Below are positions 5,001-61,534 of a DNA stretch of 64,000 bases, in pieces. The notes beneath the pieces were generated by a model, which worked only from the letters and a program-made list of their open reading frames with translations, was not told where the DNA came from and did not search any database. The stretch comes from an uncultured Latescibacterota bacterium (GTDB lineage: Bacteria; Latescibacterota; UBA2968): positions 1,287,339 through 1,351,338 of the forward strand of contig OX638329.1 in NCBI GenBank assembly GCA_951812755.1, given 5' to 3'. The position numbers and the translations under genes are program-made. The stretch's first letter is position 1; every line of letters begins with the position of its first letter.

Positions 5001-7591
5001 AAAACGCGATACATCAACGTGCGTCCAGACGCGGCCTCCCCATCGGGCGTCACTGCAACAACGGGCACCTCAAGAGAGGCATTGATGCGCGTAAAACCGT
5101 AATCCAGGTCTGGCTTGTGCAAGCCCACATAAACCTCAAACGGATCGATGTGTACCGTGTGCGCTGTGCTATTGGGTCGCCCCCCTTTTTCGAGCACGCG
5201 AGCGCGCAATACCGCAGACAGGCGTGAAGGTGCTTCGCTCAAAGAAGGAAGCTGCCACGACACAGCAGCCTTGCCCTCCTCGTCCAGAGCACCCGTAAAA
5301 ATATTGGTAGTAATCGGCTTGAATTGAACCGCCTGATTGACAAACGAAAAACCCTCAAATTTGGGAAATACAGGCGGAGAACTGCGCAGCGTAACATCGA
5401 CACTGGCTTTTAAGCCCGCCGCTGGATTGCCAAATAAATACGCACTCCTCAGATCTGCTTTCAACACGCGATCCCGCTCTGCAAGTTGCGGATCGAGAAA
5501 GACTTTAAGGCGAAAAGGCACAATGGTTTCGACCTTGACCCTGTGATTAAACTTGCGGCTACCCACGTCAATTTCAGCGCGCCAGTTGCCCGTTGGCGCG
5601 TCGGCCGAAGTCGATAAATCAAAGGTGTAAAATCCATCTTTTCCCTCGCGATTGGTCTGCGTGAGCACGCGCTGTCCCAATGGATTGTAAAACGCGAGCG
5701 AGACCGGATGCCCGTCTGGAAACGTGTGGTTGTGATTTCGCACAATCGCCGATAGATGAATATCATCGCCGGGCCGATAAACCCCGCGCTCCGTGTAAAA
5801 AAACGCCCGAATACCATCGGGTGCAGGGTCTTGTCCTCCCGTATCAAAAGTCGATAGATTCCACGCCATATCCCCCGATTTGACAAAACTGCGCTGCCCA
5901 TCTTTCTCGGCTTCGATATAAAAAACATCTGATTTTACAGGACTAAAATCCGCCAGGCCGTTTCGATCTGTAACTTTTTGTTCCACAACCTGATTCTGGT
6001 ATGTGCGCAGGGTTATGGTGACACCGGACAATGGCCGCGCATCTTCCAAATGGGTGGCATAAACGAGATGCCGCTCGTGCGTCTTTTGATGCATAAGACC
6101 GATATCGCTGACCACCACCGGCTTATAGATGCGCCCGTGCTGATAGACATAACCGCGCGAATAGGGATTGTTAAAATAATCAGTCCCGCGGTACCGTCTG
6201 CGTTGTTGCCGCGCCTCTGCCGCTTCCACAGGGTCTCCGTAGAGCATATCCTCTGCCCCAAAAGTGAGCCCGATCAAATAAAGCCCCTTCTCGTCTTTGG
6301 AAATCAGATCGTTCAAATCGAGTTCGTGTTGCAACCACACATTTTTTTGGTTGCCAATATCCAGTGTGGTATCTGCCACTGTCACGCCCACGCGCCGAAT
6401 CTGATAAGAGGAAAATACTCGCGTGCGATCCCGCGCCCCATCCACCCCTTGAATTTGCAAGAACTGCCCCAGATTCGATTCAAAAACTTTATCGATCTTG
6501 AGACGAACGCGCGACACATTTACCGTCTGAAACCGGATTTTTCGATTGCCAGAAGTGGGCAAAAACACACCGTCACGCGCAAAACGCATGCGGGGCTTGA
6601 TATCGTCAAAAGCCACCGTCTCTGTACGCGGTTGTGCCAGTGCGATGCCCCAGCGACTGCGAACCCCCGGATGTACTGTCAACGCATAACTCTGTCCGTG
6701 CTGAAAATCGCCCACAACACTCACTGTTTTGCCAAGCGCGTTGAGCTGAAGCTGTTGCGGTGGGTCGGCAGTGATTAACCCCGCGATATCCTGACCAAAA
6801 TCGAGATCATCTGAAAAAATAATACTTACGCTCGGGCGGTCTCGGTCCGTGTGTTTTTCAATCTCGACAACGGAAAATGCCGATAAAGGAGGAAGCACCC
6901 ATGTATTGTCGTAGTCTTGCGAGAGTTCCAAATCTGTTCGATCAATATGCATCGCGAGTTCCTGGGACTCTCTCGTGCGCGTAATCTCGGCACTCGTAAA
7001 ATCGTGCGTCTTGCCATCTGATAACACACGCCAATGGAGTGCAAGCCGCTGATCTCCCAGACGCAACGCCACCGCATCACTCACAGCCGAAGAATCCGCG
7101 CGTTCGTTAAAGCTAATCTGACCGCTAAAAACCAGACGCTGCGGATCGTTCGCATCGGGCAACTCAAAATCTGCCTCGAGTGCGACGAGTTCCCGTCCCG
7201 CGACCTCAAACTGGATGATGAGCGGCTTCAGATCTTTGTGCTGGGGAAACAAATCGGCTATGCTGAGCTCGCCGCTATAGACCGTGCGCAATGTCAACGG
7301 TGCGTTTGGCTTGAAAACAAGCGTACGCACATCTTCCCATGTCGCCAAACCGTCAATAGATGGAATAAAGCGAAACACGCGCGTTCGCAACACCTGCCCA
7401 ACCTGACTTTTACCGATAACAGGCGATACAAAGCGCACGCGAATCGGATCAGTCGATGTGAGCACACCCTCGCTCACATGGCTCACCATACGCGCCGTCT
7501 CCATAGGATAGGATTGCGGTGCGTCTTCGGGCGACTTTTTGCTACACGCAAACAGCGTCAGCAACACAAGGAGAGAAATACGGTATGACAT
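2099..7591 (-). CDS. Bacterial alpha-2-macroglobulin family lipoprotein
   Basis: Giant periplasmic protease trap, 1830 residues. The start is set at 7591, not further upstream, because AGGAGG lies just before that ATG and a signal peptide with lipobox LFAC (Cys16) follows. The thioester motif GCVEQ lies near residue 1372, so this is a thioester-bearing member that should covalently capture proteases after bait-region cleavage. Repeated beta-rich macroglobulin domains fill the N-terminal two thirds, and alpha-helical thioester and receptor-type domains follow. It is somewhat longer than E. coli YfhM (about 1650 residues). Downstream pbpC gives the usual partner: A2M is thought to guard the periplasm once the wall is breached while PBP1C repairs it. 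Upstream are two membrane CutA-like genes, which are not standard partners. Confidence 0.95.
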   Translation of the reverse strand: MSYRISLLVLLTLFACSKKSPEDAPQSYPMETARMVSHVSEGVLTSTDPIRVRFVSPVIGKSQVGQVLRTRVFRFIPSIDGLATWEDVRTLVFKPNAPLTLRTVYSGELSIADLFPQHKDLKPLIIQFEVAGRELVALEADFELPDANDPQRLVFSGQISFNERADSSAVSDAVALRLGDQRLALHWRVLSDGKTHDFTSAEITRTRESQELAMHIDRTDLELSQDYDNTWVLPPLSAFSVVEIEKHTDRDRPSVSIIFSDDLDFGQDIAGLITADPPQQLQLNALGKTVSVVGDFQHGQSYALTVHPGVRSRWGIALAQPRTETVAFDDIKPRMRFARDGVFLPTSGNRKIRFQTVNVSRVRLKIDKVFESNLGQFLQIQGVDGARDRTRVFSSYQIRRVGVTVADTTLDIGNQKNVWLQHELDLNDLISKDEKGLYLIGLTFGAEDMLYGDPVEAAEARQQRRRYRGTDYFNNPYSRGYVYQHGRIYKPVVVSDIGLMHQKTHERHLVYATHLEDARPLSGVTITLRTYQNQVVEQKVTDRNGLADFSPVKSDVFYIEAEKDGQRSFVKSGDMAWNLSTFDTGGQDPAPDGIRAFFYTERGVYRPGDDIHLSAIVRNHNHTFPDGHPVSLAFYNPLGQRVLTQTNREGKDGFYTFDLSTSADAPTGNWRAEIDVGSRKFNHRVKVETIVPFRLKVFLDPQLAERDRVLKADLRSAYLFGNPAAGLKASVDVTLRSSPPVFPKFEGFSFVNQAVQFKPITTNIFTGALDEEGKAAVSWQLPSLSEAPSRLSAVLRARVLEKGGRPNSTAHTVHIDPFEVYVGLHKPDLDYGFTRINASLEVPVVAVTPDGEAASGRTLMYRVFHNENYWWWEYDSRDQFRLRFKRDFSTKKILETSIISQDRPVPVAFKPEKKGEYLIEVADEDGHKASLFIRAYPWGSLPASGRDAGALVLKTDRENYAPGEKAVVSFPVPDTSSVLVTVSRGGNVVHSRWHTPRTRNTAQVEIPITADMAPNAYVTISVIQPHRQTANDRPLRMYGIVPLRVVDPNTRLDLTLTAPDELKPDDSFEVVVQTDDGKPAQLTLSVVDEGLLDITQFSTPDPWRAFFGKLRLGLHISDLFGQVIGVNIGDVFKTFAIGGDAALAAYRRDRLPEEQKQRFKSVSLFEGPIATDDQGRAVVSFVMPNYVGSVRIMAVAARGNAYGSAEKTVPVKTDLMVLPTLPRVLRPGDHIAVPATVFAMRDSLGPVDVAISTEGLLNVDGQTRDTIVFQKVGEEDVLFMCAVPNAIGDARVVITATAGDVIATHTTDLTISPSSPRISADETREIRPGDAVVLPIPDRGIPGSNRARLTLHTRPNMKLDNRVLWLVQYPYGCVEQVVSAAFPQLYLKDILIVSDQSNAIAREIDEHINAAIQRLRRFRLSSGALSYWPGRSKPSIWGTLYAGHFLIEANALGYYVPDDLFESWVQYEQSRALTTRDDLMIRTYRVYLLALANQPALGAMNLLKESSLRDMTNVEKWLLASAYHRAGSSAIADEILRNAGTLATQDKRWEHTFGSALRDRTMILGAMIDFQRWEEADPLVDEIALALASDRWYSTQTSSFALLALGKHIRATEGDQPLRLTGSVTLPGGEVVPFDTDSRFYNVDIESGFGQSVRVQLNAESTVTRAFATLAWSGVPLNADAVAESRNLQLDVRWRDDNGFPVYPDTLKQGATFWGHFRVRNTSAAYLREMALTQLLPSGWEIENTRLSGAPMPRWTSKLHLGHETYFDIRDDRVTYFFDITPAGPGFTRDFVVKLNAVTVGTFTLPPTLVEAMYNHASRAVVTGRTVVVR

Positions 7592-27655: not shown

Positions 27656-28096
27656 CTACAGGCTTTCCCAAATTGCTCGACTGATATCCGCTTGCTGCAA
27701 AATCCTGAGAAGCTGTTTTAAAACTCATTCTGCCCCTCCCCGTCTATGCTCTATTGCCCTGTCATTCTGAGCGGAGCGTAGCGGAGTCGAAGGAGCGGGG
27801 TACAACTGGCCGCCTCTCAGGCCAGTTCATCTCTTACCAACTCAGGTGGAAAAGATGCTTCGGCTACGCTCAGCATGACAAAACGCCGGACATGCGTAAC
27901 ATCAGGTATTAATTTTAAAACAGCTTCTGAGCAAAAGCCCACGATCGATATCACCCCGATGCAGATTGGGAATGGCAAGACGTGTTGTTTCTCGAATCAT
28001 ATAATGATGCTTGCCTCCAGGATACGGACCTTCAAATCCCAGTTGCCTCAAATAGCGAATTAGATTGCGGCGACTAATTGGCCCAAATTTGGGCAT
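27656..28096 (-). pseudogene. hicA: hicA toxin gene split by a MITE
   Basis: The first part encodes a HicA mRNA interferase: GPISRRNLIRYLRQLGF, then GGKHHYMIRETT (catalytic His) and IPNLHRGDIDRGLLL. The frame then enters the MITE at 27926 and stops after RSCFKINT. On the other side of the element, from 27709 to 27656, the original tail continues: RILQQADISRAIWESL and stop. Removing the MITE and one CTGAG copy restores a continuous 72-residue HicA of normal length. The truncated 64-residue product keeps the dsRBD-like core and catalytic His, so partial activity cannot be excluded. It overlaps hicB at TGATG. Confidence 0.92.
27710..27926 (+). mobile_element. 217-bp MITE inside hicA
   Basis: Non-coding element with terminal inverted repeats AAGCTGTTTTAAAA and its exact complement, flanked by 5-bp direct repeats CTGAG (27705-27709 and 27927-27931). 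The interior carries a GTCATTCTGAGCGGAG-type segment and TGCTTCGGCTACGCTCAGCA. A 181-bp relative lies at 60168-60348. This copy has an extra 39-bp hairpin repeat at 27792-27830. Confidence 0.93.
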
Positions 28097-52856: not shown

Positions 52857-53606
52857 ATGATCACAGAAGAAGACCTCTGGTATTTCAAAACCACTGGATT
52901 TTACAAAGTCCGCGAAACCCTGCCTGACGATCTGGTCGATCGTCTAAACGAAGTCACTTCCCGGCAAATCGCGGACATGCGCGAACCCATTGTTTGGGAA
53001 GAAAAAGAAGCGCGCGAACCGAAAAATGTTCGCCGTCTCTCAAAAATTTTCTTGCGAAACCCCGTCTATTTTGAAGCCGCGTCTCACCCCATCATCCTCA
53101 ACGCCCTCGAAGGCATCATCGGCCCAAATATCGAAGTGCTCACCAACAAACACAACCACGTCATGGTGCGCCCATCCGGGTCTTATCCCGTCCCCTGGCA
53201 CGCCGGCGAAGAACCCTATGACCACACGCTCATCACTGGCTTGATCTACCTCGAAGAATCAACCGTTGAAAACGGCTGTATACGCATCGTGCCCGGCAGC
53301 CACAACCGGCCATTTCTCAACCCGCGCCGACCACAGAAACAAAGAGACAACTTTTACCACAGCGACAACTATTACCGCGCAGTGCCAATCCCCATGCCGC
53401 GCGGCGGTGTAATCCTCTTTAACGACTGCTGTTATCACGGCTCTGACACAAATTGTTCCGATCATTCTCGCCGCAGCATGACGGTTGCCTATCGCGCCCA
53501 CGACGCCCACGACGTGATCAAAGACGACCCGGAAAAAATTCTCGTACGCGGCGAAAAAGTCTATACGGGACATCCCCATCCCTATTCTCTTCCCGTTCAG
53601 GAGTAG
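52857..53606 (+). CDS. Phytanoyl-CoA dioxygenase-like Fe(II)/2OG enzyme
   Basis: 249 residues. The PhyH double-stranded beta-helix is visible in the first metal motif VPWHAGEEP (His with a later acidic residue), GLIYLEESTVENGCIRIVPG, and distal NDCCYHGSDTN with the 2-oxoglutarate Arg in SRRSMTVAYR. The usual HxD is spaced as HxxE here, so iron binding is less certain than in the next gene. GATATC-rich sequence precedes the ATG without a strong binding site. The adjacent paralogue follows after 3 bp. Confidence 0.88.
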   Translation: MITEEDLWYFKTTGFYKVRETLPDDLVDRLNEVTSRQIADMREPIVWEEKEAREPKNVRRLSKIFLRNPVYFEAASHPIILNALEGIIGPNIEVLTNKHNHVMVRPSGSYPVPWHAGEEPYDHTLITGLIYLEESTVENGCIRIVPGSHNRPFLNPRRPQKQRDNFYHSDNYYRAVPIPMPRGGVILFNDCCYHGSDTNCSDHSRRSMTVAYRAHDAHDVIKDDPEKILVRGEKVYTGHPHPYSLPVQE

Positions 53607-53609
53607 GAC

Positions 53610-54317
53610 ATGCCCTCACTCACCATGCGACAAATCCAGCTCTTTCGGAACAACGGTTTTCTCTGTCTTCCAGACCGTTTGCCAGAAGAAATGGTTGAAA
53701 ATCTGAAGACCGCTATTATGGACGATATTGACCGCAAAATCGAACCCATCGTACGCAATAAAGATGGCCGCGCCGTGCGTATCTCTGCCCTTATGGACCG
53801 CGCGCCGATCTTCCGAGAAGCCGTCACACATCCACTCGCGCTCGACCCACTCGAATCGCTTCTGGGACCCAATATCGAAATCCTCACCAACCGCCACAAC
53901 CACGCCACTTTACGCACAGCAGAGGACAACAAAGGCGCGTATCTTCATCGCGATGTCAGACAGTGGACGCGCAACATCTACACCATCATCTTTTATCTCG
54001 AAGAAACCACCCTCGAAAATGGATGCACCCGCATTGTACCCGGATCGCATCACTTCCCCGGTGTCTCCACATCTATTCACGATGCAGACTGGGCAAGCGA
54101 TGTCCTCGGTCAGGCACTCCCCTTACCCATGCCCGCAGGTGGGATGCTCGCTATCGATAGCATGGTCGTCCACGGTGCAGGCGAAAACCACACCGACGAC
54201 ACGCGCATGAGCATGACAATTGGCTATCACAGCGTCGATGAACTCATGGACATTCCCAACCCCAAACGCCTGCTCGTACGCGGAGAAGGTCTGTACAACG
54301 GGAATGATGGAAAATAG
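53610..54317 (+). CDS. Phytanoyl-CoA dioxygenase-like Fe(II)/2OG enzyme
   Basis: 235 residues. It shares the PhyH plan of its upstream neighbour (NIEILTNRHNHATLRTA here, NIEVLTNKHNHVMV there), so the two arose by tandem duplication. Here the metal triad is canonical: HRD in AYLHRDVRQW, distal His in VVHGAGENH, and the Arg in TRMSMTIGYH. Such enzymes hydroxylate small or lipid-linked substrates with O2 and 2-oxoglutarate. The substrate is unknown. AGGAGTAGGAC at the upstream gene's end serves as the ribosome binding site. Confidence 0.9.
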   Translation: MPSLTMRQIQLFRNNGFLCLPDRLPEEMVENLKTAIMDDIDRKIEPIVRNKDGRAVRISALMDRAPIFREAVTHPLALDPLESLLGPNIEILTNRHNHATLRTAEDNKGAYLHRDVRQWTRNIYTIIFYLEETTLENGCTRIVPGSHHFPGVSTSIHDADWASDVLGQALPLPMPAGGMLAIDSMVVHGAGENHTDDTRMSMTIGYHSVDELMDIPNPKRLLVRGEGLYNGNDGK

Positions 54318-56136: not shown

Positions 56137-56355
56137 ATGAAAGATTCTATCCAGATTAGTTTACCTGGTTCGTTGCGTACACGATTGGACCAGATGGTTG
56201 AGACTGCCCAGATTACTCGCAACGAAGTGGTGAGCGAAGCTCTTCGACAATATCTTCAAAGAGAAGAGTTTCAGCGACTCAGGCGTGTGATGATTCCCCA
56301 GGCACAAGCTCAGGGCGTTTATACTAATAAAGATGTATTTAGGAGGACATTATGA
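56137..56355 (+). CDS. Ribbon-helix-helix (CopG/ParD-like) regulator
   Basis: 72 residues behind a strong AAAGGAGG site. IQISLPGSLRTRLDQMVE is the beta strand and first helix of a ribbon-helix-helix DNA-binding domain, and ITRNEVVSEALRQYLQREE is the second helix. The C-terminal tail (PQAQAQGVYTNKDVFRRTL) resembles antitoxins normally followed by a PIN toxin gene. Here no toxin follows: the next gene is a lipoprotein overlapping by ATGA. It may be an orphan antitoxin or an autoregulator of the lipoprotein-DUF350-aminopropyltransferase operon. Confidence 0.85.
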   Translation: MKDSIQISLPGSLRTRLDQMVETAQITRNEVVSEALRQYLQREEFQRLRRVMIPQAQAQGVYTNKDVFRRTL

Positions 56356-57083
56356 CACGAGAACGAGTGCCGATCTTGCTAATCGGCCTTCTGTTATTGT
56401 GCGGGTGCGGCGGAGAACGCGATCCCGTCGTTGAAATGCAAAAATCGCTTGCCTCGGCACCGGCATATATGATTGTATTGGATGATATACGTGAAGAAGG
56501 CACAGTTTTTACCGCATATTATCATCGGTATTTAATTACACAGGGCGAAAAAAAGGTACAATCGGACTGGATAGAAGTATCGGAGTCCATCTATCGAAAA
56601 TACGAACCATTTTTGGGAATGGCGCTCGTTGCCAAATCTGAGCAAGATGGCGTAAACAATACGCCACACCCGCCCGGATACCACTATGTGGGCAATCCGA
56701 GCTACGGGCGTTGGTCGGATCGTGGAGGCACGTCGTTCTGGGAATTCTACGGCCAATACGCGATGATGAGTCATTTGCTCGGTTGGGGCGGCGGATTTGG
56801 CATGAGTCGCTACGATTACGACGATTATCGGTCTTATCGCCGAGATGGACGCCCGTATTACGGGCGCAATCGGGAGTATGGCACGCAGGGATCTGTCACA
56901 CAAAAACAAAAACCAACGACATTCCAGCGACGCAAGGCAGCCATAGCCCAAAAGAGACAATCGTTCACACAAAAAGTGCAAAGTCGCACGAGCCAGAGTC
57001 GCAGCGGATTTGGCAGTTCGCGTTCAACGAGTCGCAGCCGATCTGGATTTGGCAGCCGCAGTTCTGGAGGGTTTGGAAAATGA
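56352..57083 (+). CDS. Lipoprotein with basic RS-rich tail
   Basis: 243 residues. Lipobox LLCGC gives a lipid anchor near Cys19. A folded domain (about 30-130) includes TVFTAYYHRYLITQGEKKVQ. A Tyr/Gly/Asp-rich middle (GWGGGFGMSRYDYDDYRSY) and a basic Ser/Arg/Gly tail (SRSGFGSSRSTSRSRSGFG) follow. I do not recognise the family. It overlaps the upstream RHH gene and the downstream DUF350 gene by ATGA, so all three are translationally coupled. Lipoproteins of this kind accompany DUF350 genes in PspA-linked clusters, which is inference from context. Confidence 0.8.
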   Translation: MTRERVPILLIGLLLLCGCGGERDPVVEMQKSLASAPAYMIVLDDIREEGTVFTAYYHRYLITQGEKKVQSDWIEVSESIYRKYEPFLGMALVAKSEQDGVNNTPHPPGYHYVGNPSYGRWSDRGGTSFWEFYGQYAMMSHLLGWGGGFGMSRYDYDDYRSYRRDGRPYYGRNREYGTQGSVTQKQKPTTFQRRKAAIAQKRQSFTQKVQSRTSQSRSGFGSSRSTSRSRSGFGSRSSGGFGK

Positions 57084-57925
57084 TTTTACAAGATTTGATT
57101 GCAACGGGTATTTATCTCATCAGCGCGTTTATATTGTTCTGGCTCGGCAAATTGATCAAGGATTTGACGACAACGAGTTATAGCGTGCGGGAAGAACTGG
57201 TCGAAAAAGACAACGCCGCACTGGGTGTGGCCATGGCGGGATATTATTTTGGATTGATATTGGCCATTGGAGGCACCTTGTCTGGACCATCTCAGGGATT
57301 GGAAAACGATTTAATCGACATCGGCATATACGGATTGCTGGCAATCATCTTGCTCAATCTGTCGCGTCTGGTCAACGACTGGGTGATCTTACACGGGTTC
57401 AAAGTACGGGATGAATTGATCGACGACCAAAATGCGGGCACGGGTGTCGTGGTCGCCGCGTCGTATATTGCAACGGGATTGGTGATCTTTGGCGCCGTCT
57501 CGGGTGAGATTGGCGGAATTGTGACAACAGTGGTATTCTGGGCATCGGGTCAAATAGCCCTGGTACTGGCCGGGCTGGTGTACGAATTGATTACCCCGTA
57601 TAGTATTCACGACGAAATCGAAAAAGACAATGTCGCCGCAGGCGTCGCTTTTGCCGGTGCACTGGTCGGCATTGGCGTTATTGTATTTCACGCATCGGCG
57701 GGCGATTTTATTTCATGGACTATAAATCTGCAGGATTTTGCGATTGAGGTAGTCGCCGGATTGATATTACTACCCATCGCCCGATTCATCTCCGATGTGA
57801 TCCTCTTACCCGGACAAAAACTGACCGATGAAATCGCCAATCAAGAACACCCCAATTTGGCCGCGGGCTTCATCGAAGCCACGTCTTATATCGGTGCGTC
57901 GTTCCTGATTGTATGGAGTTTGTAA
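57080..57925 (+). CDS. DUF350 (YjfL-type) membrane protein, duplicated
   Basis: 281 residues with about eight transmembrane helices in two or more repeats of the DUF350 unit. Each begins with a charged motif: YSVREELVEKDNAALGVAMAG, then FKVRDELIDDQNAGTGVVVA and YSIHDEIEKDNVAAGVAFAG. The repeated (E/D)KDN-A-GVA motif is characteristic. Function is unknown; in enterobacteria the homologue YjfL lies with a PspA-like protein. A strong hairpin with U-tract follows, just ahead of the aminopropyltransferase gene. Confidence 0.92.
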   Translation: MILQDLIATGIYLISAFILFWLGKLIKDLTTTSYSVREELVEKDNAALGVAMAGYYFGLILAIGGTLSGPSQGLENDLIDIGIYGLLAIILLNLSRLVNDWVILHGFKVRDELIDDQNAGTGVVVAASYIATGLVIFGAVSGEIGGIVTTVVFWASGQIALVLAGLVYELITPYSIHDEIEKDNVAAGVAFAGALVGIGVIVFHASAGDFISWTINLQDFAIEVVAGLILLPIARFISDVILLPGQKLTDEIANQEHPNLAAGFIEATSYIGASFLIVWSL

Positions 57926-57951
57926 AAAAGGAAGTTGTATTAAATCTGTGC

Positions 57952-57991
57952 AACTCGGCGGACTGATCGCCCGCCGAGTTGTTTATTTTTT
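57952..57991 (+). terminator. Hairpin/U-tract directly before aminopropyltransferase ATG
   Basis: Perfect 10-bp stem AACTCGGCGG with CCGCCGAGTT, then GTTTATTTTTT, ending at the ATG at 57992. It looks like an intrinsic terminator or attenuator, and it leaves no room for a normal ribosome binding site. Confidence 0.85.
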
Positions 57992-59527
57992 ATGCGACAG
58001 AGTTATCTCTTAAAAGCCTGTATATTCGCCACTGGGTGCGCTGGTATTGTAGCGGAATTTACGCTATCGACGCTGGCGAGCTATCTATTGGGCAATACGA
58101 CATTGCAGTGGGCGGTGCTCATGTCGTTAATGTTATTTGCCATGGGCCTGGGCAGCCGATGGAGCCGATTGTTGACGGACCGATTGCTGGATCGCTTTAT
58201 CGCAATCGAATTTTATCTCTCGGCCCTGTGCGCCACCTGTGCGGTTGTGGCGTATTTTGGATCGGCATTTGTGTTGTCGGCAGGCGTTTTCATCTATGTT
58301 TATGCTTTTGCAATCGGTGTGCTAATCGGCATGGAAATTCCGCTGGTCGCACGCATGAACGAAGCGTACCAGGATCTGAGCACCAATATCGCCTCAGTAA
58401 TGGAAAAAGACTATTTTGGCGCATTGATCGGCGGACTATTGTTCGCCTTTTTTTTGTTGCCAGACTTGGGCCTGACCTACACGCCGCTGGCATTGGGCGC
58501 GATTAACTTTGTCGTGGCATCGGTATTACTGTGGCAATACCGACACTTATTGGCGCGTCGCGGGTGGCTGTTGGCGGCATTCTGGATCCTGGGCGCGGGT
58601 CTTTTAATACTGGGAATTTATATCCGCCCCATTGTAATATGGGGCGAGCAAAGTCGGTATCGCGACCGCGTGGTCTATCAAGATCAAACCGCTTATCAAC
58701 GCATTGTCATAACAGAATGGAAAGGCCACCACTGGCTGCACTTAAATGGCAACGTACAATTCAGCACCTATGACGAAGAACGCTATCACGAATCGCTGGT
58801 ACATCCGGCCATGCAACTATCTGGATCGCGGAACAACGTGCTCATTTTAGGCGGAGGGGATGGACTGGCTGTGCGCGAAGTTGTGAAATACGCAGATGTG
58901 AAAGAGATTACGCTGGTAGATTTAGATAAAGCGATAATCGATCTGGCGCGCACATATCCAATTTTTGTAGAAGCGAACGCGCGGGCACTGGACGACCCGC
59001 GTGTACAGGTGGTAATCGGCGATGCCGGCGCGTTTTTGGCGCGTTCAGATGCATTATTCAATATCATCATCATCGACTTGCCCGATCCCAAAGGACCAGA
59101 CCTCGCCAGATTGTATTCGCGGGAATTTTATCGCTTATGTGCGCGTCACCTGACACCCGATGGCGTGCTGGTAACCCAGGCGTCGAGTCCTCACAACGCG
59201 CGTCTTGCTTTTCTGTGCATTGACCGCACGATGGAAGACGCTGGCTTTTCGACAATCCCCTATCACACCTATATACCGACGATGGGCGATTGGGGATGGG
59301 TACTGGGGATGAAAACACAGGGAATTCGCAAAGAGGATCTCGTTCGCCGAACGCGACAACTCACCTTTGTGAATATTGAAACGCAATTTTTGAATGCAGA
59401 AGCAATGCGGGGAATGTTGCACTTCTGGAAGGGCATGTTCGATGAAAAACATGCGGTCGAAGTAAGCACAGAAATGGAACCGACAGTAGATCGATACTAT
59501 CGGAAATCAGAATGGGGAGTTGAGTAG
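57992..59527 (+). CDS. Membrane-fused spermidine synthase-like aminopropyltransferase
   Basis: 511 residues. The N-terminal half (1-205) has about seven transmembrane helices (COG4262-type). The C-terminal half is a class I methyltransferase-fold aminopropyltransferase: WLHLNGNVQFSTYDEERYHE, NVLILGGGDGLAVREVV (cofactor loop), EITLVDLDKAI and IIIDLPDPKGPDLARLYS (catalytic Asp region). It would transfer aminopropyl groups to a polyamine at the membrane. In other bacteria such membrane-fused forms cluster with DUF350, DUF4178 and PspA genes, as here. The start codon directly follows a hairpin/U-tract, so translation may be leaderless-like or controlled. It converges on the DUF4178-like gene with a 5-bp gap. 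Confidence 0.92.
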   Translation: MRQSYLLKACIFATGCAGIVAEFTLSTLASYLLGNTTLQWAVLMSLMLFAMGLGSRWSRLLTDRLLDRFIAIEFYLSALCATCAVVAYFGSAFVLSAGVFIYVYAFAIGVLIGMEIPLVARMNEAYQDLSTNIASVMEKDYFGALIGGLLFAFFLLPDLGLTYTPLALGAINFVVASVLLWQYRHLLARRGWLLAAFWILGAGLLILGIYIRPIVIWGEQSRYRDRVVYQDQTAYQRIVITEWKGHHWLHLNGNVQFSTYDEERYHESLVHPAMQLSGSRNNVLILGGGDGLAVREVVKYADVKEITLVDLDKAIIDLARTYPIFVEANARALDDPRVQVVIGDAGAFLARSDALFNIIIIDLPDPKGPDLARLYSREFYRLCARHLTPDGVLVTQASSPHNARLAFLCIDRTMEDAGFSTIPYHTYIPTMGDWGWVLGMKTQGIRKEDLVRRTRQLTFVNIETQFLNAEAMRGMLHFWKGMFDEKHAVEVSTEMEPTVDRYYRKSEWGVE

Positions 59528-59532
59528 AGGTA

Positions 59533-60072
59533 TTACGCTACTGGCAGGATACTGCTAAATTGATATTCTTCGACCACCTCACCCACTGCGGCATCATAAG
59601 CGTCTTCGTCCCATTGCTCGACAGACAAAGTGAGCTTTCCCGACTCGTCGAAATAATTCCAGATGATAAACTCCTGTCCTTCATCCCCGCCATCTTTGTG
59701 AAAAGATCCAACGGCAGATGATTCTCCGTAGTAAATAATACCGTTGCAAGTGACTTCATCTGGAGGATCATCGTAGTTGCTCATATGCGCACGGATATTG
59801 CCCTCAATATTGGAAACGGGAATTTTGCGCGTCAGGCCCCAGGAAATACTATCGTCTTCTGCCCGCTCGAGATATGCCACGTCATCGCCACAGGAGAGTT
59901 CCCATTCATCCACGCGATCACCTTCGTAATCGTAATAATGCTGCGCTGTAACCTGCCATGTTTTGAGATCGTAGTCGAGAACATAACCCGGCTTGAGATC
60001 GGACAGCGTAATACTGAGGGGATCGAGGACTTCGGGTTCTTCTTTCTTTTTCTTAAAAGGATTCCAATTCAT
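59533..60072 (-). CDS. DUF4178-like protein
   Basis: 179 residues, starting at 60072 behind AGGGAGAG. A basic N-terminus (NPFKKKKEE) precedes a beta-rich domain: ITLSDLKPGYVLDYDLKTWQ, then WELSCGDDVAYLERAEDDS, then TCNGIIYYGESSAVG. It matches the DUF4178 pattern of a single-domain cytosolic protein. Family function is unknown, and co-occurrence with PspA and membrane aminopropyltransferases is known from other genomes. The upstream gap to pspA holds a MITE. Confidence 0.75.
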   Translation of the reverse strand: MNWNPFKKKKEEPEVLDPLSITLSDLKPGYVLDYDLKTWQVTAQHYYDYEGDRVDEWELSCGDDVAYLERAEDDSISWGLTRKIPVSNIEGNIRAHMSNYDDPPDEVTCNGIIYYGESSAVGSFHKDGGDEGQEFIIWNYFDESGKLTLSVEQWDEDAYDAAVGEVVEEYQFSSILPVA

Positions 60073-60167
60073 TTTCTCTCCCTGCAATGCAGCGAGTAAA
60101 AAAACTCATCCGGGTGCGCGAGTGTCTCATTCACAGGCACACCCAGAGTCAGTCCACAGCTTCTAAG

Positions 60168-60348
60168 AAGCTGTTTTAAAATTAATACCTGATGTTACGC
60201 ATGTCCGGCGTTTTGTCATGCTGAGCGTAGCCGAAGCATCTTTCCACCTGAGTTGGTAAGAGATTCTTCGACTCCGCTGCGCTCCGCTCAGAATGACAGG
60301 GCAATAGCGCATAGCTGAGAAAGGGCAAAATGAGTTTTAAAACAGTCT
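60168..60348 (-). mobile_element. 181-bp MITE at the pspA stop codon
   Basis: Relative of the hicA-splitting element in the opposite orientation. Ends are AAGCTGTTTTAAAA and TTTTAAAACAGTCT (one end diverged), flanked by CTAAG at 60163-60167 and 60349-60353. The right duplication contains the complement of the pspA TAG stop. It lacks the 39-bp internal hairpin insert. Confidence 0.9.
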
Positions 60349-61053
60349 CTAAGAATTCATTCCCATCTTTGCTTTGAGTTCAGCAAGGCGTTGATCTGTG
60401 CCGCTTGATGAAGTACTCAGTGCCGCGTCAATTTCCTCATCAACGCTCTTGGATTCATCGGCCATTTCACCATACGCCTGCGAGAGCGATTCATCTTCTT
60501 CAACCCGCTCTTTCATGCGCTCGAGCATGGCGATTGTACCAGACGAATCGACTTTGGCGAGTTGCTTGTTGATTTTTTTCGTCGCAGCGGCTGTTTTTGC
60601 ACGCGCACGCAGTGAAATGAGTTCATTTTCATGTGTTGCAATGGTAGATTTGAGTTTCTCCACCTGGCTTTGAAGCTTAGCGGCCATATCTTCCTGCATC
60701 TGGGCATCCTGCTCAAACTGAGAGATACGGCTGTCGGCCTCTGTTTTGCGGCTGAGTGCTTCGGTTGCCAACCGATCGGCTTCCCCAGCATCCAGATCGC
60801 CGCTCTGGGCTTTTTGGAGCAAAACCATGGCCTTCCGCTCCCAGTCGGCAGACGCCTTTTTGTTATCTTCAGCCTGCTTTCGCAATCGAATGGCTTGCCC
60901 TTTGACCTCAGCCAGGCTGGTCATCGCGTTATTGAGGTCTTGTTTTAGATCGCGAATGCCCTGTTCGGTCATTTTTATCGGATCTTCAAATTTGTCAATA
61001 GCCGAATGGACTTCGGACTTGCCCACATTGAAGAGACGTTGAAAGATGCTCAT
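60349..61053 (-). CDS. pspA: PspA/IM30 (Vipp1-like) membrane-stress protein
   Basis: 234 residues behind AAAGGAG. The ESCRT-III-like coiled-coil protein is clear: FQRLFNVGKSEVHSAIDKFE, then DPIKMTEQGIRDLKQDLNNA and long coiled coil through residue 190. PspA/IM30 proteins bind anionic membrane, stabilise damaged bilayers and seal leaks. The C-terminal YGEMADESKSVDEEIDAAL, then LAELKAKMGM is normal. No PspF/PspBC regulator genes are seen. The stop codon lies in the target duplication of a MITE yet stays intact. Confidence 0.95.
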   Translation of the reverse strand: MSIFQRLFNVGKSEVHSAIDKFEDPIKMTEQGIRDLKQDLNNAMTSLAEVKGQAIRLRKQAEDNKKASADWERKAMVLLQKAQSGDLDAGEADRLATEALSRKTEADSRISQFEQDAQMQEDMAAKLQSQVEKLKSTIATHENELISLRARAKTAAATKKINKQLAKVDSSGTIAMLERMKERVEEDESLSQAYGEMADESKSVDEEIDAALSTSSSGTDQRLAELKAKMGMNS

Positions 61054-61100
61054 AAGATACTCCTTTTTTGAAAATGGTCAGCTTTTGTACGGGTGGGTTT

Positions 61101-61132
61101 GGAACGGTGTACAACTGCGCCAGCAGTTCAAC
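61101..61132 (+). repeat. GGTGTACAACTG hairpin repeat
   Basis: GGAACGGTGTACAACTGC, then CAGCAGTTCA, lying between the YbjN-like stop (61139) and the pspA start (61053), with GGGTGGGTTT and ACCCGCCC as outer arms. It may act as an intercistronic hairpin modulating pspA expression. Confidence 0.65.
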
Positions 61133-61138
61133 CCGCCC

Positions 61139-61534
61139 CTACTGATGGCTATATTCGAGTAATTCTGCGGCATTTTCGGCCAGGGCGAGTTCGAGCGCAG
61201 TGATCGAGCCTTCAAGCTCAGATCGGTCGAGTGTATCCAGGCGCAGGGTATCGCGGAAAAGAACCGTGCTGGTTTCATCGTCCAGGGTAAACGCCCCGTG
61301 AACAAGTGTGCGATTCATTTCGAGCAACCTTTTGTACAGATCTCCTGGAACATTGGGAACGGGCATAATCGCCTGCTCAATAATGAGGATGGGATCCTCG
61401 CAATCGACAATGAGATGATTGATACCGCGATCTTCGTCGCTCACCACAACGAGTTCTTCAGCGGTATCTTCCTCGTCAACCGCGAGATTGAGGTCTTGAA
61501 GATAAGATTTGACTGTATTGAAATATTCTGACAT
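61139..61534 (-). CDS. YbjN/Tir-chaperone-like small acidic protein
   Basis: 131 residues, started at 61534 behind CAGGAG. The sequence VKSYLQDLNLAVDEEDTAEE, then HLIVDCEDPILIIEQAIMPV, then LYKRLLEMNRTLVHGAFTLD, then TLRLDTLDRSELEGSITALE matches proteins annotated YbjN-like or Tir-chaperone-like (CesT fold). In enterobacteria the PspA-like YjfJ instead pairs with YjfI. It is first in the operon ahead of pspA, with an 85-bp gap. It is probably a cytosolic partner of PspA; that is inference. Confidence 0.78.
   Translation of the reverse strand: MSEYFNTVKSYLQDLNLAVDEEDTAEELVVVSDEDRGINHLIVDCEDPILIIEQAIMPVPNVPGDLYKRLLEMNRTLVHGAFTLDDETSTVLFRDTLRLDTLDRSELEGSITALELALAENAAELLEYSHQ

Follow-up and report, generated by a model that had tools for sequence, protein, structure and literature searches.

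We analyzed a 64,000-nucleotide stretch (the window) of contig OX638329.1 from an uncultured Latescibacterota bacterium, which carries a seven-gene cluster encoding, among others, a membrane-anchored aminopropyltransferase (TM-SpdSyn) and a lipoprotein with a basic C-terminal tail. All seven genes named in the original prediction were present where it had placed them, as confirmed by matches of Pfam and NCBIfam profiles to the window proteins (Table 1); the lipoprotein itself gave no family match in either database. The plus-strand arm encodes a ribbon-helix-helix (RHH) protein, the lipoprotein, a DUF350 membrane protein whose start overlaps the lipoprotein stop (ATGA), and TM-SpdSyn, in which seven predicted transmembrane (TM) helices are followed by a spermidine-synthase domain from approximately residue 226. 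The convergent minus-strand arm encodes a DUF4178 protein, a PspA/IM30 family protein, and a chaperone-type protein. The last had been called YbjN-like; the YbjN family (PF10722) does match it, but CesT_Tir_1 (PF22550) is its best family. The cluster is flanked by a sulfatase gene and a RecJ gene.

The gene cluster and its conservation in Latescibacterota

The cluster as such is of an already published kind. The main text of Ravi et al. (2024; PMC11237479) describes a "second major group" of CesT/Tir-PspA operons with a membrane spermidine synthase, the gene set comprising CesT/Tir, PspA, a 7TM-spermidine synthase, an 8TM DUF350 protein, a lipoprotein, DUF4178, and sometimes an RHH protein. 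The window shares with this group the CesT/Tir and PspA dyad (PF22550 and PF04012), the spermidine synthase fused to an N-terminal 7TM domain, and both the DUF350 and the DUF4178 proteins; it also has the RHH gene seen in some members. The window lipoprotein occupies the place expected for the Ctha_1186-type lipoprotein of that group, a likeness of position only. For such operons, the same text proposes a PspA/CesT response on the inner side of the membrane and, with reference to Li et al. 2019, raises the possibility that other substrates are aminopropylated.

When 64 genomes of the phylum were searched with NF002956, 40 were over the cut-off, the window genome among them. Forty loci were taken for comparison, from the 39 other genomes and from G037, which has a partial match below the cut-off. 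All six non-RHH genes were found together by tblastn in 34 of the 40 loci, and the six incomplete loci (L042, L051, L053, L058, L064, and L073) all lay at contig ends. Co-conservation of the two convergent arms, on which the original prediction had been made to depend, therefore holds in this phylum. In one family, the cluster genes all run in a single direction. The RHH gene had been regarded as coupled to the cluster, and this part of the prediction was not supported as a conserved feature. No RHH gene preceded the lipoprotein gene in any of the eight same-genus loci with both flanks readable, where the sulfatase gene is followed directly by the lipoprotein gene, and a relaxed tblastn search of the 40 phylum loci found no RHH match better than E 0.88. 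The RHH protein was accordingly rejected as a conserved regulator, although the Ravi et al. main text reports it in some operons.

Table 1. Features of the cluster, numbered from the first nucleotide of the window (aa, amino acids)
Feature	Position	Strand	Match or observation
RHH protein, 72 aa	56137..56355	+	PF01402, 21.5 bits (cut-off 20.5)
Lipoprotein, 243 aa; lipobox LCGC, Cys19; Arg/Ser/Gly-rich tail ending -SSGGFGK	56352..57083	+	no family match
Codons of the invariant C-terminal Gly-Lys, the putative aminopropyl acceptor	57075..57080	+	GK in 38/38 orthologues
DUF350 membrane protein, 281 aa; 8 long helices in model	57080..57925	+	PF03994, 188 bits, two stretches
TM-SpdSyn, 511 aa	57992..59527	+	NF002956, 576 bits (cut-off 472)
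DUF4178 protein, 179 aa	59533..60072	-	PF13785, 72.7 bits
Copy of genome-wide interspersed repeat, DUF4178-PspA gap	60220..60241	+	exact matches in genome
PspA/IM30 family protein, 234 aa	60349..61053	-	PF04012, 159.2 bits
CesT/Tir-like (YbjN-like) chaperone-type protein, 131 aa	61139..61534	-	PF22550, 160.4 bits; PF10722, 40.3 bits

Several further features of these loci were observed. The repeat TGAGCGNAGCCGAAGNATCT occurs in the window at 60220-60241 and 27853-27874 and has 88 exact matches genome-wide, 44 on each strand, with none for the reversed control. Because one copy lies in the gap between the DUF4178 and PspA genes, the minus-strand arm may be transcribed as two units. Upstream of the sulfatase gene (PF00884), two adjoining related open reading frames (ORFs) at window 52857-54317 are phytanoyl-CoA dioxygenase-like by eye. 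In the three single-direction loci that were read, an oxidoreductase-like gene (by eye) lies between PspA and the enzyme, and one of them, L041, also carries an S-adenosylmethionine (AdoMet) decarboxylase gene (PF02675 match). A FAD-dependent oxidoreductase gene adjoins TM-SpdSyn in L041 (4574-6397) and L048 (7642-9294), both by eye, and in L186 (6433-8049), where it is annotated; such an enzyme could act on the amine.

Lysine-ending tails beside TM-SpdSyn

The original prediction had drawn attention to the highly basic tail of the lipoprotein. The tail is indeed basic, but its striking feature is instead the end. The last two residues were Gly-Lys in all 38 readable orthologues, as in the window protein; L042 and L073 fall outside this count, the lipoprotein gene being missing at the contig end. 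By contrast, five residues occur at position -3, and positions -4 to -12 and the length of the tail vary. An invariant -GK amid variable preceding residues suggests that the functional site is the C-terminus.

A collection of 84,980 species, each represented by a single genome, was scanned with a TM-SpdSyn alignment. At least 567 stretches were confirmed, and the best 80 loci were kept as a discovery set, for which the criteria were set after looking at the data; the test set described below is alone independent. For the 79 loci whose enzyme ORF was complete, a count was made of ORFs running from stop to stop and 70 or more residues long, unproven as genes. A GK end was seen in 46 of the 969 ORFs that lay within 2.5 kb of the enzyme on its own strand; the figures were 2 of 899 at greater distance on this strand and 3 of 2004 for the opposite strand (5 of 2903 combined; Fisher p ~6e-23, kinship among loci ignored). 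A -GK or -HK tail was found within the fetched flanks of 65 of the 80 loci, which span many phyla. PspA was detected in 11 of these 80 loci from other phyla, so that the predicted association with PspA is real yet optional.

The proteins that bear these tails were of several kinds. A Pfam scan of ten carriers gave two matches to PF14042 (DUF4247) and two to PF13785 (DUF4178); the other six matched neither. In the DUF4178 carriers, the domain is followed by a hydrophobic segment and then by the tail, and other carriers were peptides of 48-68 residues, counted from a chosen Met, with one TM segment. The lysine tails thus seemingly ride on unrelated carriers, namely lipoproteins, DUF4247 proteins, DUF4178-TM fusions, and tiny single-TM peptides.

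For the test set, the -GK/-HK rule was fixed before fresh loci were read, and equal 1.5-kb flanks were used throughout. Beside TM-SpdSyn, the rule found a tail in 5/5 loci of Bacillota and 10/14 of Pseudomonadota (12/14 with wider stretches), giving 15/19 in total, or 13/16 without three enzymes identical to those of discovery loci. None of the 41 SpeE-type loci had a tail by the rule (p = 7e-11 for TM-SpdSyn against SpeE-type, kinship among loci ignored); this group comprised matches that fell short of the NF002956 cut-off and mostly had the length of a soluble enzyme, with L253 lying in an 835-codon open frame. The rule also found none in seven GspSA-like loci, named from frames of 632-656 codons, and 1 in 23 YgiC-like ligase loci, this one being an antisense ORF. 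With antisense ORFs filtered out and equal windows, the counts were 56/79 for the discovery set (two or so look spurious) and 15/19 for the TM-SpdSyn test set, as against 0/41 for SpeE-type, 0/7 for GspSA-like, and 0/23 for YgiC-like loci. A looser rule (any C-terminal Lys plus a TM segment) gave 41/79 and 11/19 beside TM-SpdSyn, and 1/41, 1/7, and 0/23 beside the other enzymes in the same order. Terminal Arg showed no clear enrichment beside TM-SpdSyn: 10/79 and 4/19, compared with 5/41, 0/7, and 3/23. On plasmids, 12 full-length TM-SpdSyn matches were obtained, and all six loci fetched had a C-terminal Lys tail.

Two explanations other than modification of the lysine bear on these counts. 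In the first, the tail's C-terminal lysine is joined to peptidoglycan by an L,D-transpeptidase, and the link to the aminopropyltransferase is indirect. Braun lipoprotein is anchored in this manner through its C-terminal lysine, and two features of such a system are present here, an exported lipoprotein with C-terminal Lys and a gene of the L,D-transpeptidase family. Lipoproteins and single-TM peptides whose predicted outside tail ends in Lys fit this explanation, and YkuD-family genes were found in 14/14 TM-SpdSyn genomes examined. However, anchoring accounts neither for the enrichment of tails beside TM-SpdSyn nor for their absence beside SpeE-type genes, and we consider it very improbable. 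In the second explanation, DUF350 or the membrane domain recognizes the -GK/-HK end as a signal for docking or quality control, and nothing is changed covalently. The distribution of DUF350 agrees with this: a lysine tail was present in 58/61 loci with DUF350, compared with 7/19 without it. The three DUF350 loci without such a tail were L137, whose tail ends -GGGKN, and L110 and L142, whose contigs start within or at DUF350. Conversely, L102 has a lysine tail, but DUF350 was not found in its draft genome. We regard a docking signal as improbable.

The DUF350 protein itself gave a confident AlphaFold2 (AF2) model (predicted local distance difference test [pLDDT] of 92.5) with eight long helices that seem to repeat a pattern and are linked by short helices. 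The model had no match in the PDB with E <= 0.001; the modeled structure is possibly an undescribed membrane fold. L147 holds two DUF350 copies (offsets of -2044 and -291 relative to the enzyme ORF), and close to each of them lies a separate mini-protein that ends -SYYHK.

Terminal residues beside the ATP-grasp ligase

The Escherichia coli operon yjfIJKLMC has a layout like that of the window, with the PspA-family protein YjfJ, the DUF350 protein YjfL, a polyamine enzyme, and a DUF1190 protein with an Arg/Gly/Ser-rich tail; ygiBC encodes a DUF1190 lipoprotein and YgiC. YjfI (DUF2170) is described as CesT/Tir-like in the main text of Ravi et al. (PMC11237479). Unlike TM-SpdSyn of the window, the enzyme of these E. 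coli operons is an ATP-grasp ligase, and YjfC and YgiC carry the RefSeq label peptide--spermidine ligase. The partner of this ligase is likewise Arg/Gly/Ser-tailed, but the YjfM and YgiB tails have RGGYG/RGGFG motifs and a GG end (-HWGG and -SMGG, respectively) in place of the window -GK.

Since a first survey with DUF1190 matched only 2 of 143 genomes, GSP_synth loci and plasmid records were used instead. An RGGFG-like tail protein was seen by eye in 23/23 genome ligase loci, eight of them in wider stretches, and the tails ended in G (16 loci), S (6), or E (1), and in no case in K. When a rule was applied (RGG[FYL] among the final 50 residues together with a TM segment, within 1.5 kb), 15/23 ligase loci passed, compared with 4/79 and 0/19 TM-SpdSyn loci in the discovery and test sets, 1/41 SpeE-type loci, and 0/7 GspSA-like loci. 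The tails of two other ligase loci, L181 and L182, end in -GG, as do those in six of ten plasmid loci with a ligase homologue (-GG or -GGG). No tail was visible by eye in the other four plasmid loci, from Nocardia (L189), Azospirillum (L195), Virgibacillus (L196), and Photobacterium (L197). Where seen, the tails beside genome and plasmid ligases end in Gly, Ser, or Glu, whereas that of the window lipoprotein ends in GK.

Two simpler formulations were rejected. Ligase tails do not always end in GG, given the S and E ends above. A bare -GG rule passed 16/23 ligase loci, one of which (L212) is spurious, and was by itself too noisy, passing 5/14 Pseudomonadota TM-SpdSyn loci and 7/16 and 3/25 SpeE-type loci. 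As a side observation, the TM-SpdSyn locus L159 contains a ligase homologue adjoining a lipoprotein-like ORF that ends -SYGG (5042-6496 and 6213-6815, minus strand); DUF350 was found neither in the fetched stretch of L159 nor in its genome. A scan of nine window proteins, from the cluster and its flanks, found no ATP-grasp GSP_synth ligase, the rest of the genome being unsearched.

Because DUF350 is annotated beside both enzymes, the ligase and TM-SpdSyn, the terminal residue follows the enzyme and not DUF350. This counts against a docking signal read by DUF350, since the tails beside the ligase end in Gly. Peptidoglycan anchoring also gives no account of the Gly/Ser ends. The ligase needs a carboxylate and the aminopropyltransferase needs an amine. 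These comparisons indicate that the terminal residue of the tail tracks the predicted chemistry of the enzyme.

A candidate lysine acceptor for the membrane aminopropyltransferase

The sequence of TM-SpdSyn is that of an aminopropyltransferase. Across 47 sequences, 41 alignment positions are invariant, including G287, G289, D310, D344, D362, P364, and D365. The invariant stretches align with solved aminopropyltransferases, and the glycine loop and active-site acidic residues of polyamine aminopropyltransferases are kept. The AF2 model (pLDDT 91.9) had 163 fold matches in the PDB with E <= 0.001; the best 50 of the 163 were spermidine synthases or other aminopropyltransferases, the first being from Thermus thermophilus. 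Soluble SpeE and its relatives have the catalytic fold and motifs in common with TM-SpdSyn but lack the membrane domain, and the rule found no -GK/-HK tail in the 41 SpeE-type loci.

These features would also fit an enzyme that makes free polyamines from soluble diamines, with the lysine tail acting as an unmodified sensor or docking partner that binds the enzyme. The family is named polyamine aminopropyltransferase, and its active-site residues are kept. In addition, no SpeE above the TIGR00417 cut-off was found in the window genome, so TM-SpdSyn could be the housekeeping enzyme. On the other hand, a sensor tail would not account for the change from Lys to Gly/Ser beside the ATP-grasp ligase. 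The MFS-like/spermidine-synthase fusion of Li et al. 2019 reportedly fails to complement a SpdSyn mutant, which we count against this explanation. We consider it unlikely.

None of these alternatives explains the switch between Lys and Gly/Ser as simply as aminopropylation of the terminal lysine. The comparative evidence suggests that the enzyme modifies a lysine-tailed partner protein instead of solely making free polyamines. We judge it slightly better than an even chance that the C-terminal lysine of the partner tail is the acceptor of the membrane aminopropyltransferase, in a module attached to the PspA membrane-maintenance dyad. The original prediction of polyamine modification of lipids or of the envelope pointed in the right direction, but a protein acceptor is favored over lipids.

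In the proposed mechanism, AdoMet decarboxylase, whose gene is present in the window genome outside the cluster, would make decarboxylated AdoMet. Its gene was found in 22/24 TM-SpdSyn genomes and lay within the fetched flanks of 25/80 loci. TM-SpdSyn would then move the aminopropyl group onto the side-chain amine of the C-terminal lysine, in the window that of the lipoprotein end -GGFGK. The product would be Gly-Lys(N-epsilon-aminopropyl), with an arm (CH2)4-NH-(CH2)3-NH2 as in spermidine; this identity would make it a mimic of the product of the ATP-grasp ligase on the sister tails. The polycationic tail may act at the outer membrane face, with PspA and CesT at the inner face, and DUF350 might conceivably move the donor to the other side of the membrane or provide a docking site for the tail. 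As for the sides of the membrane, the family-average hydropathy of the 47 sequences has seven peaks, and the mean number of Lys plus Arg is 2.7, 3.0, and 3.0 in loops 2, 4, and 6, compared with 0.0, 0.4, and 0.5 in loops 1, 3, and 5. By the positive-inside rule, this predicts that the N-terminus lies inside and that the catalytic domain lies outside, where the tail is also predicted to be.

Several observations weigh against aminopropylation of the terminal lysine. The tail and the catalytic domain are both predicted to be outside, and the donor is made inside. The side of the catalytic domain is itself uncertain because AF2 draws helices 5 and 6 (residues 129-182) as one continuous helix. The AdoMet decarboxylase family PF02675 was not found in G071 and G073, two of the 24 genomes examined. 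The tail rule gives false positives: of the 45/80 discovery loci that passed it, L110, L130, and L144 proved spurious on reading. Among the 65 positives, 22 came from reading by eye once the search had been widened, and five of these 22 tails (L112, L116, L119, L135, and L153) are on the strand opposite the enzyme; L088 was a further addition. Fifteen of the 80 loci have no convincing lysine tail. L137 is one of these; in L081, L110, L111, L120, L142, and L155, contig ends cut near the enzyme, but contig ends provide no explanation for L105, L130, L141, L144, L145, L157, L158, and L159, and DUF350 was found in the fetched stretch of none of these eight. In the test set, L291 and L292 lacked a lysine tail within ~6 kb, and one of the plasmid tails ends -VK instead of -GK or -HK.

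The main text of Ravi et al. never uses the term lysine; the C-terminal -GK/-HK rule, the seemingly unrelated tail carriers, and the switch between Lys and Gly/Ser are described here and go beyond that text. As far as searched, the tail rule is new, none having been found in the titles and abstract openings of the open-licence PMC papers listed. A conserved terminal lysine, replaced by Gly/Ser beside an enzyme that needs a carboxylate, names a specific candidate acceptor and site. Extension of protein lysine side chains by propylamine units is known from diatom silaffins, but that modification is eukaryotic, affects many internal lysines, and serves silica formation, and the likeness is one of analogy only.

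More broadly, and with somewhat less than an even chance in our estimation, many phyla would share an unrecognized posttranslational modification in which membrane aminopropyltransferases turn the C-terminal lysine of dedicated tail proteins into N-epsilon-aminopropyl-lysine, mimicking spermidine at the end of the protein. By attaching spermidine to sister tails, the ATP-grasp ligase, which is of an unrelated enzyme class, would produce an equivalent end, and the two enzymes would belong to a general system of polyamine-capped tails that includes DUF350 and often PspA. If true, this would give a common role to the DUF350, DUF4178, DUF4247, and DUF1190 families.

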